Origin: Blastocatellia bacterium
GTDB taxonomy: Bacteria; Acidobacteriota; Blastocatellia; HR10
Length of the DNA stretch: 64,000 bases
Direction of reading: 5' to 3'
Assembly (NCBI GenBank): GCA_025055075.1
Contig: JANWYV010000006.1
Location: 62,001-126,000 of the forward strand
Below are positions 44,434 to 46,773 of the stretch, piece by piece. Position numbers and translations under genes: made by a program. The notes beneath the pieces were generated by a model. It was not told the DNA's origin, made no database searches, and saw only the letters and a program-made list of their open reading frames with translations. Every line of letters begins with the position of its first letter. The first letter of the stretch is position 1.

Positions 44434-44555
44434 GCCGGAGGCAACTTCTCACCTTTCCTCCGAGATCAAGGTGTGGGAAAATCTTCACTCTGAAGAGGGC
44501 GCGAGAGGAAGTGGCGCTCATTGGTGAGAAGAGTACGATGGGTGGAGAGGCGAAG

Positions 44556-44912
44556 ATGAACGACTACGAACGCGAGTGCGTCTTCTGTCACATCGTGAAC
44601 GGAGATCATCCGGCTGACATCCTCTACCAGGACGATCGCGTGATTGCATTCAAGGACATCAATCCCCAAGCACCATGGCACATCCTGATCATCCCTCGCG
44701 AGCACATGGATTCATTGAATGATGCGGCTCCTCAAGACGAAGCCGTGCTCGGACACATGCTGCGGATCGCGTCGAAAGTGGCGAATCAAATTGGGATCGC
44801 CGAAGAGGGGTATCGGGTCGTCATCAATACGGGGCCGCGGGCTGGGCAGAGCATCTTTCATCTCCACCTCCATCTGCTCGGTGGGCGCCCATTGCGTTGG
44901 CCTCCGGGATGA
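44556..44912 (+). CDS. HIT-family nucleotide hydrolase (HinT-like)
   Basis: A 118-residue histidine-triad protein. C-V-F-C near the start is half of the zinc site found in many bacterial HinT proteins. I-A-F-K-D-I-N-P-Q-A-P-W-H-I-L-I-I-P and the triad H-L-H-L-H-L-L are complete. Such enzymes hydrolyse adenosine phosphoramidates and acyl-adenylates. ATG 44556 is preferred because GGAGAGG lies five bases upstream; ATG 44538 is possible. The 122 bases before it contain a small CGGAGG/CCTCCG hairpin and no further gene. It ends three bases before the dapF-like gene. Confidence 0.92.
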   Translation: MNDYERECVFCHIVNGDHPADILYQDDRVIAFKDINPQAPWHILIIPREHMDSLNDAAPQDEAVLGHMLRIASKVANQIGIAEEGYRVVINTGPRAGQSIFHLHLHLLGGRPLRWPPG

Positions 44913-44915
44913 CCA

Positions 44916-45776
44916 ATGCGGCGCGTGCCGTTTTGCAAGCTTCAGGCTTTGGGCAACGATTTCATCGTTGTCGCCCGCGAGCACCTCTCCGCGGAAGAGA
45001 TCGCTCGATGGGCAGCGCGATGGTGTCATCGTCATTTCGGCATTGGCGCTGATGGCGTGATCCTCGTCGCCCCATTGGCCTCGGACTCTGAGGCGGACTT
45101 CGAGATGCGCTTGTGGAACGCCGATGGGACGGAGGCAGAGCTCTCTGGCAACGGTCTTCGCTGCCTAGCGGCATATCTTGCATTCACGGGACGGTGGCGA
45201 GAGCCCGTCGTTCGCCTTCGAACGAAGGCGGGAGTGAGACACCTGGAACAGATTCGCCACGAAGGGACGCACTTTGAATTCCTCACTGACATGGGGATCC
45301 CCGCACTCTCCAGCACGGCGATCCCGATGGCCCTCGATCCCCCACGACCACGCATCATCGGGTTCCCCGTTCGCGTCCACGAGCATGCGATCCCGATCAC
45401 CGCGTGTTCCTTGGGGAATCCTCATTGCGTTGTGTTCGTGGAGGACTTCACGGCGTTGGACATTCGGCACATAGGGGCAGCCCTCGAGCGACATCCGCTC
45501 TTTCCCGAACGGACCAACGTGGAATTCGTGCGCGTTCGGGATCGTCAAAACCTCGAATTGCGGATGTGGGAGCGCGGCGTGGGAGAGACGCTCTCCTCAG
45601 GGACAGGAGCATCGGCGGCGCTCGTCGCCGCTGTGCTCAATGGATTAGCGGAGAGAGAAGCATGGGTGCACACACCGGCCGGTGCCCTGCGCGTCCGATG
45701 GCGGTCGGATGATCATATCACTGTCGAGGGATCGGCGGAGGTCCTCTTTTTCGGAGAATGGGTGGGGCAGATATGA
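44916..45776 (+). CDS. dapF: Diaminopimelate epimerase-family protein with both catalytic Cys replaced by Ser
   Basis: A 286-residue two-lobed epimerase of the DapF family, full length and with conserved N-D-F (14-16), W-N-A-D-G-T (67-72), G-N-P-H (167-170) and E-R-G-V-G-E-T (219-225). DapF normally uses a pair of cysteines as base and acid, as in C-G-N-G and A-C-G-S-G-A. Here the first is Ser77 (E-L-S-G-N-G, codon TCT at 45144) and the second Ser228 (L-S-S-G-T-G-A-S, codon TCA at 45597). Both substitutions need more than a sequencing slip to explain, and the rest of the fold is intact. LL-diaminopimelate epimerase activity is therefore doubtful. A different amino-acid epimerase, isomerase or dehydratase role is possible. 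It overlaps the next gene by ATGA. Confidence 0.85.
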   Translation: MRRVPFCKLQALGNDFIVVAREHLSAEEIARWAARWCHRHFGIGADGVILVAPLASDSEADFEMRLWNADGTEAELSGNGLRCLAAYLAFTGRWREPVVRLRTKAGVRHLEQIRHEGTHFEFLTDMGIPALSSTAIPMALDPPRPRIIGFPVRVHEHAIPITACSLGNPHCVVFVEDFTALDIRHIGAALERHPLFPERTNVEFVRVRDRQNLELRMWERGVGETLSSGTGASAALVAAVLNGLAEREAWVHTPAGALRVRWRSDDHITVEGSAEVLFFGEWVGQI

Positions 45777-46021
45777 GCGGCAAAGACGTACGCTTCGTCC
45801 TGTTGGCTCGATTCACAGCGGTTGCCGAGGCGGAAATGGTGCGGGAGTTGCTCGCCCGAGAGGGGATTTCTGCTCTCTTGACCGGGACGAGCGATCCGTT
45901 AGGCGTCGTGAGTGGCGCTCAACCGATTCGACTCCTCGTGGCGGAGTCTGATCTGGAGCGCGCCCGATCGCTATATCAGGCATTCTTCCAAAAGCCATTC
46001 TTCGAGGCTCAAGAGAGTTGA
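45773..46021 (+). CDS. DUF2007 (putative signal-transducing) family protein
   Basis: An 82-residue protein of the DUF2007 family. The pattern is typical: V-L-L-A-R-F-T-A-V-A-E-A-E-M-V-R-E-L-L, then G-I-S-A-L-L-T-G and Q-P-I-R-L-L-V-A-E-S-D-L-E-R-A. These small alpha/beta proteins resemble ACT/PII-like folds, and their role is unknown. The start lies on the ATGA overlap with the dapF-like gene, and the stop overlaps the comF start, so it is tightly coupled on both sides. Confidence 0.82.
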   Translation: MSGKDVRFVLLARFTAVAEAEMVRELLAREGISALLTGTSDPLGVVSGAQPIRLLVAESDLERARSLYQAFFQKPFFEAQES

Positions 46022-46773
46022 AGTCGAATCGAGGAAGACGGGCCACCGTGGGGCAATCCTTCGCGGACGTCTTGCTCAGTGTGATCTTCCCTTCTCGCTG
46101 CATGCTCTGTGGAGAACCCGTGGAGTCGCTCGCCGATGGGCTCACCTGTGCGGCGTGTTGGGCGACGCTCGATTGGCTTCCCGCCGCGCGATGCGCTCGC
46201 TGCCATGCGCCGGTGAAGGCCCCCGTGGAGGAATGTCCGGCATGTCCGGCGATGGCATTGGATCGCCTTCGATTCCTCGGGCCTTACACGGGTGCTCTTC
46301 GAGCCCATCTCCTCTTCTTGAAGAGGAAGCCATATGTGTGTCGGCGCTTGCGCGAAGAGATTGGTAAACGGGTCGCGACGGAGCCGATTTTTCGCGAGGT
46401 GGAGCTGGTGCTTCCGGTTCCGCTTCATCCCCGGCGACAGCGCGAACGAGGGTACAATCAAGCGGAGCTTTTGGCCGAAGAGGTAGCGCGCGCGCTCATC
46501 TGTCCGCTGCGGCGTGATGTCTTGCGGCGCGTGATCTACACGGAACCACATCGGGCGGGGATGGATGCGCTCGCTCGCGCGCGCCGCGTCGCCCAATGCT
46601 TCGTCATCACTTCCCCGAAAGCGGTGTGGGGAAAGACTGTGCTCTTGGTGGACGACGTTTATACGACCGGAGCGACTTTGAACGAGTGCGCTCGAACGGT
46701 GCGAGCAGCTGGCGCGCGCGCCGTCTACGGATTCGTCGTCGCGCGCGCCATCGGCGAGACTTCCGGTTCCTGA
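46018..46773 (+). CDS. ComF-family phosphoribosyltransferase-like protein
   Basis: A 251-residue ComF/GntX-type protein. The N-terminal double zinc ribbon has eight cysteines (C28, C31, C44, C47, C59, C62, C73, C76). The C-terminal phosphoribosyltransferase fold has H-P-R-R-Q-R-E-R-G-Y-N-Q-A and the PRPP loop V-L-L-V-D-D-V-Y-T-T-G-A-T. In transformable bacteria ComF aids DNA uptake; elsewhere its role is unclear. The TTG start at 46018 overlaps the preceding TGA. It converges with the PPIase gene 13 bases away. Confidence 0.9.
   Translation: MKSNRGRRATVGQSFADVLLSVIFPSRCMLCGEPVESLADGLTCAACWATLDWLPAARCARCHAPVKAPVEECPACPAMALDRLRFLGPYTGALRAHLLFLKRKPYVCRRLREEIGKRVATEPIFREVELVLPVPLHPRRQRERGYNQAELLAEEVARALICPLRRDVLRRVIYTEPHRAGMDALARARRVAQCFVITSPKAVWGKTVLLVDDVYTTGATLNECARTVRAAGARAVYGFVVARAIGETSGS

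Follow-up and report, generated by a model that had tools for sequence, protein, structure and literature searches.

A DapF homologue with serine in place of both catalytic cysteines is widespread in Acidobacteriota and may be a serine-based diaminopimelate epimerase

A thiol/thiolate pair is the explanation given for how cofactor-independent racemases work, and changing cysteine to serine is the standard way of crippling them. Here we describe a homologue of diaminopimelate (DAP) epimerase, or DapF, that has serine at both of the catalytic positions. It is encoded in a 64,000-nucleotide stretch of the genome of a Blastocatellia bacterium from the phylum Acidobacteriota (assembly GCA_025055075.1, contig JANWYV010000006.1, positions 62,001 to 126,000), which we will call the window. 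In the cysteine enzymes, a thiolate with a pKa of about 8.5 takes the alpha-proton (PMC11602996, PMC12039745). In a related group, the proline racemase superfamily, a natural serine at the first position works in a Ser/Cys 4-hydroxyproline epimerase and in a Ser/Thr dehydratase (PMC4113996). We found no description of DapF homologues with two serines (Ser/Ser) in the open-access literature that we searched, and there may be prior mention elsewhere. The gene and its key codons are, in the coordinates of the window:

44916-45776, + strand: Ser/Ser DapF homologue of 286 amino acids, with an ATG start and a TGA stop
45144-45146, + strand: Ser77 (codon TCT) in the motif E-L-S-G-N-G, at the position of catalytic cysteine 1 (Cys73 of H. 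influenzae DapF)
45597-45599, + strand: Ser228 (codon TCA) in the motif L-S-S-G-T-G-A-S, at the position of catalytic cysteine 2 (Cys217 of H. influenzae DapF)
45117-45119, + strand: Asn68, a DAP-contacting residue equivalent to Asn66 of the Anabaena enzyme (contact per PMC12039745), conserved in 140/140 of the Ser/Ser set
45570-45575, + strand: Glu219-Arg220, equivalent to Glu215-Arg216 of the Anabaena enzyme, for the distal amine and carboxylate of DAP (PMC12039745), conserved in 140/140

The protein is closer to DapF than to the proline racemase superfamily. It matches the curated DapF model (TIGR00652) over its full length at 230.9 bits (the cut-off is 114.65), and its nearest solved relatives are DAP epimerases, of which the best is from a cyanobacterium (9mro, Anabaena). 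DapF entries are 26-41% identical to it, with E values down to 1.6e-35, versus 12-16% identity and E about 1e-14 for entries from the proline racemase superfamily. An earlier note, made from the DNA sequence alone, had described a clean, full-length open reading frame (ORF) with Ser77 and Ser228 and had proposed aligning it with DapF structures. The codons and the alignment bear this out: both serines align with the catalytic cysteines of the solved structures. In an AlphaFold2 model that was built from 44 Ser/Ser sequences (mean predicted local distance difference test score, or pLDDT, of 97.2), Ser77 is directly N-terminal of helix 78-90 and Ser228 of helix 229-241, as the cysteines are in DapF. 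The best match to the model's fold in the PDB is 9mro_A (TM 0.91, root-mean-square deviation 1.9); 9mro is DapF bound to D,L-aziDAP, which is the closed form. The fold and the pocket fit DapF, but where DapF has two catalytic cysteines this protein has Ser77 and Ser228, so it should be named a Ser/Ser DapF homologue rather than a verified DapF.

We took the DAP-contacting residues from solved structures (PMC12039745) and checked them in an alignment of 140 Ser/Ser sequences. Asn68, Asn201, Glu219, and Arg220 are each present in 140/140, Asn14 is present in all 137 sequences that are readable there, and Asn168 is present in 138 of 140. Both catalytic positions are serine in all 140, and the Gly-Asn after the first serine is just as invariant (140/140). 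All nine tested positions are intact in 134 of the 137 readable sequences, and the protein from the window carries the full set of contacts (N, N, N, N, E, and R). This conservation, which is our strongest argument, suggests that the substrate of the Ser/Ser proteins is still DAP or nearly so. The Cys/Cys DapFs of Acidobacteriota are less canonical: in most of them (32 of 43; L229 and L232 are examples), Asn168 of the G-N-P-H motif is replaced by valine, so one DAP-contacting asparagine is lost.

The Ser/Ser set is set apart at four positions: 86 (Ala for Arg/Lys), 120 and 122 (aromatic residues), and 217 (Ile/Phe for Val/Thr). Going by the alignment, these are candidates for compensation, not proof of it. 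A relocated catalytic cysteine can be ruled out, as none of the cysteines that are peculiar to Ser/Ser proteins is found throughout them. (Cys37 and Cys83 are found in 100% and 92% of the Ser/Ser set, and both are common in Cys/Cys enzymes too.)

The Ser/Ser pair is not a singular oddity, as the earlier note had taken it to be, but a clade-wide and invariant trait. We read 135 distinct Ser/Ser sequences, with identities as low as about 35%, from Blastocatellia and from many more Acidobacteriota families, and the protein is usually the sole DapF of its genome. The pair is present in all ten genomes of the window's order, which fall into three families. We read 90 members from Blastocatellia, and all 89 that could be resolved are Ser/Ser (89/89); the other is truncated at the first position. 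So are 40 of 40 further Acidobacteriota members, which were picked from the better-scoring matches. Among 50 members read from lower-scoring Acidobacteriota genomes, 43 are Cys/Cys, 2 are Cys/Ser, and 5 are Ser/Ser. In other phyla, 57 of the 59 readable homologues are Cys/Cys; this sample was drawn with query-derived patterns and should not be read as a survey. The other two, from metagenome-assembled genomes of Bacillota (L057 and L061), have alanine or glycine at the first catalytic position and cysteine at the second. Their nearest sampled relative is Cys/Cys, and they are possibly paralogues or one-base enzymes.

The earlier note had also allowed for a misread at both codons. This is excluded because all the other genomes of the order have the pair too and because the serine codons are of several kinds: across the set, the codons for Ser77 and Ser228 are mostly TCN, with a few AGC. 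More broadly, 135 distinct sequences with invariant pocket residues rule out sequencing error, a pseudogene, or chance. Both codons are plain serine codons, which rules out selenocysteine.

The genome that the window comes from is 98.8% complete, and the product of 44916-45776 is its sole DapF. We searched this genome and found no second DapF, which does not support the suggestion that the true DapF is elsewhere. The sole other match to PF01678 is a Cys/Cys homologue of 4-hydroxyproline epimerase (L003:1354-2307, contig C20), which is followed by an oxidoreductase-like ORF and is probably for hydroxyproline use. A general loss of cysteine racemases is ruled out by this epimerase and by the MurI of a Ser/Ser genome, which keeps both cysteines.

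The same genome has dapB-dapA-dapD-murB-murA in one cluster. Its MurE has the DAP-type motif DNPR, and the DAP-adding model gives it 556 bits. DAP dehydrogenase (TIGR01921) was not found over the cut-off in this genome or its order, nor in any of 80 genomes (0/80). Because the cluster and the DAP-type MurE are present and DAP dehydrogenase is absent, meso-DAP is probably needed. In all, dapB, dapA, dapD, and the DAP-type MurE are pinned down, and DapC and DapE are not. A LysA-like decarboxylase (L346:8103-9503) scores 325 bits with TIGR01048, which is over the cut-off, and 345 bits with the model for DokD (ornithine/lysine decarboxylase), which is below that model's cut-off, so its assignment as LysA is ambiguous. 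Clusters of dapB-dapA-dapD are also found in other Ser/Ser-only genomes; the one in L357 adds an aminotransferase and a DapE/ArgE-type deacylase.

With slightly more confidence than doubt, we propose that the Ser/Ser protein is the LL-DAP epimerase of its host and that a serine pair has replaced the cysteine pair. We favor this because the protein is the sole DapF, its DAP contacts are invariant, the genome encodes the DAP pathway and a DAP-type MurE, and there is no DAP dehydrogenase. Natural catalytic serines in the proline racemase superfamily provide a precedent. The earlier note had raised both another reaction and epimerization through serines; the invariant contacts, and the DAP pathway genes that are clustered with mur genes in this genome, favor the latter. 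The broader claim, that this is a natural amino-acid epimerase in which two serine hydroxyls move the alpha-proton, fixed across much of the phylum and with at least two origins from a cysteine enzyme, we would put at even chances.

In the mechanism that we envision, LL-DAP would be held by the conserved Asn/Glu/Arg set with its alpha-carbon between Ser77 and Ser228. The N-terminus of a helix and the desolvated, closed site would acidify one serine hydroxyl. This serine would remove the alpha-proton and the other serine would return one on the opposite face, giving meso-DAP. The second-shell changes of the Ser/Ser set (Ala86, the aromatic residues at 120 and 122, and the bulky residue at 217) may tune the serines.

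To ask how often serine arose, we built a tree that included 35 Ser/Ser representatives and left out the two catalytic columns. One clade (99/95) takes in 32 of the 35. G177 and G290 join this main clade weakly, and G118 stands apart, among Acidobacteriota Cys/Cys sequences. A single common clade for all Ser/Ser proteins is disfavored (approximately unbiased (AU) test, p = 0.014, for a group that was named after the fact), and the Cys/Ser forms occupy two separate places in the tree. The placement of G118, the AU result, and the scattered Cys/Ser forms indicate more than one replacement of cysteine by serine in the history of Acidobacteriota and, on this tree, at least two origins of Ser/Ser. 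L230 (from G123, family f15) and L257 (from G183, family f46), with cysteine at the first position and serine at the second, are natural half-way forms.

The gene order around the Ser/Ser gene agrees with the neighbors that the earlier note had listed:

44541-44912, + strand: HIT-family protein, the upstream neighbor, which adjoins dapF in the family of this genome
45758-46021, + strand: small protein (DUF2007 per the earlier note, with no match in NCBIfam) whose start overlaps the stop of dapF, a neighbor order-wide
46018-46773, + strand: comF-like phosphoribosyltransferase, the downstream neighbor in the gene order

A comparison of neighborhoods found that the order HIT-dapF-DUF2007-comF is largely retained across the window's order. 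That the gene is not coupled to lysine genes is correct locally, but it does not count as evidence, as the genes of the pathway are found on a different contig. HIT or comF is beside dapF in the window's order; family f13 has murI-htrA-dapF-pgsA, and htrA is beside the Ser/Ser dapF in several families. M20 hydrolases adjoin the Ser/Ser dapF in families f48, f34, f42, and f14 and in one genome of f29. Only some of these hydrolases are DapE/ArgE-like (in f48 and f42, the best scores come from other M20 models), so the link is suggestive only.

Several observations weigh against a serine-based epimerase. His170, a residue that has been suggested to pair with the first catalytic position, is retained in just 68 of the 140 Ser/Ser sequences, which rules out a Ser-His dyad as a general activator. 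Single engineered Cys-to-Ser changes in related enzymes lose most of the activity (PMC11602996, PMC12039745). Among 74 Ser/Ser-only genomes, dapB is over the cut-off in 47, 3 have a plausible weaker match, and 24 have no convincing match. However, dapB is also missing from 3 of 5 Acidobacteriota Cys/Cys control genomes, so these gaps are not special to Ser/Ser. Chloracidobacterium (L348 and L349), which cannot make lysine (PMC4376005, PMC12816986) yet has a peptidoglycan layer, is among the 24 without detectable dapB and keeps a Ser/Ser protein with all of the DAP contacts. And five genomes of genus g68 in family f29 (L279 and L352-L355) have a very divergent Cys/Cys copy besides the Ser/Ser copy, which lies in a thiC-pfpI-dapF-metB neighborhood. 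(In one g68 species, a DapE/ArgE-type deacylase gene is directly after the Ser/Ser gene.) We found no measured peptidoglycan composition for these bacteria in the literature that we searched.

The two copies in g68, and the copy that is kept in a lysine auxotroph, would also fit a protein that binds DAP or a close analogue and performs a one-sided reaction (a half-reaction, an elimination, or action on acylated or peptide-bound DAP), with meso-DAP coming from an unrecognised enzyme. The systematic second-shell differences would fit as well, and swaps at one catalytic position do alter the chemistry in the proline racemase superfamily, as in the Ser/Thr dehydratase (PMC4113996). We consider this unlikely, if worth keeping in view: the residues that contact the two ends of DAP do not vary, the genome has no other known candidate for an epimerase (pyridoxal phosphate (PLP)-dependent racemases were not surveyed), and the neighbors show no consistent new pathway partner. 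Because Cys-to-Ser changes usually cripple enzymes with this fold (PMC11602996, PMC12039745), catalysis might have been lost altogether. The protein would then be kept as a DAP- or protein-binding factor, much as DapF forms a complex with RppH in E. coli (6d13), and meso-DAP would come from an unrelated racemase, such as a PLP-dependent one. But serine is invariant at both positions in 140 sequences, with no drift to alanine, glycine, or threonine; most substrate contacts are fully constrained; and the pair arose at least twice, all of which make such a loss quite improbable. We give a slim chance to a racemase for another amino acid, like HisR of F. nucleatum and CntK of S. aureus, which act on histidine. 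DapF-annotated proteins do occur in hosts that lack DAP (PMC11602996), and retention in Chloracidobacterium could be viewed this way. However, HisR and CntK use cysteines, and the window's own genome encodes enzymes of the DAP pathway. Also, where a histidine racemase has Cys/Cys and a histidine pocket, this protein has Ser/Ser and a DAP-type distal site.

If a phylum-scale lineage does rely on a Ser/Ser protein as its sole DapF, this would revise the view of what such an active site needs, and it would predict a DapF that is resistant to thiol-directed inhibitors. The Cys/Cys, Cys/Ser, and Ser/Ser forms, with two or more origins, would be a comparative set for studying the mechanism. Should it turn out not to epimerize, there would have to be an unknown route to meso-DAP in soil bacteria that are abundant. 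The choice is thus between proton-transfer racemases that can work with serine and an unknown way of making meso-DAP.

Among characterized proteins, the DapFs (9mro from Anabaena, 3ejx from Arabidopsis, and 1gqz from H. influenzae) share the fold, the length, the DAP contacts, and catalytic positions at the N-termini of helices with the Ser/Ser set, which differs in having serine for both catalytic cysteines, as an invariant natural state, and in its distinctive residues at 86, 120, 122, and 217. The engineered C73S and C217S mutants of DapF (2q9h and 2q9j) have the identical substitutions, but singly and in laboratory mutants of a cysteine enzyme. The histidine racemases HisR and CntK show that a DapF-like fold can act on another substrate, but as Cys/Cys catalysts (PMC11602996). 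A natural serine at the first position is found, in a related fold, in the Ser/Cys 4-hydroxyproline 2-epimerase B9JQV3 and the Ser/Thr trans-3-hydroxyproline dehydratase B9K4G4 (PMC4113996). These differ from the protein described here in substrate and subfamily, and they have cysteine or threonine at the second position instead of a second serine. Also, the published Ser-x-x-Asn positioning of the serine enzymes of the proline racemase superfamily is not present in our protein, which has S-G-N-G.
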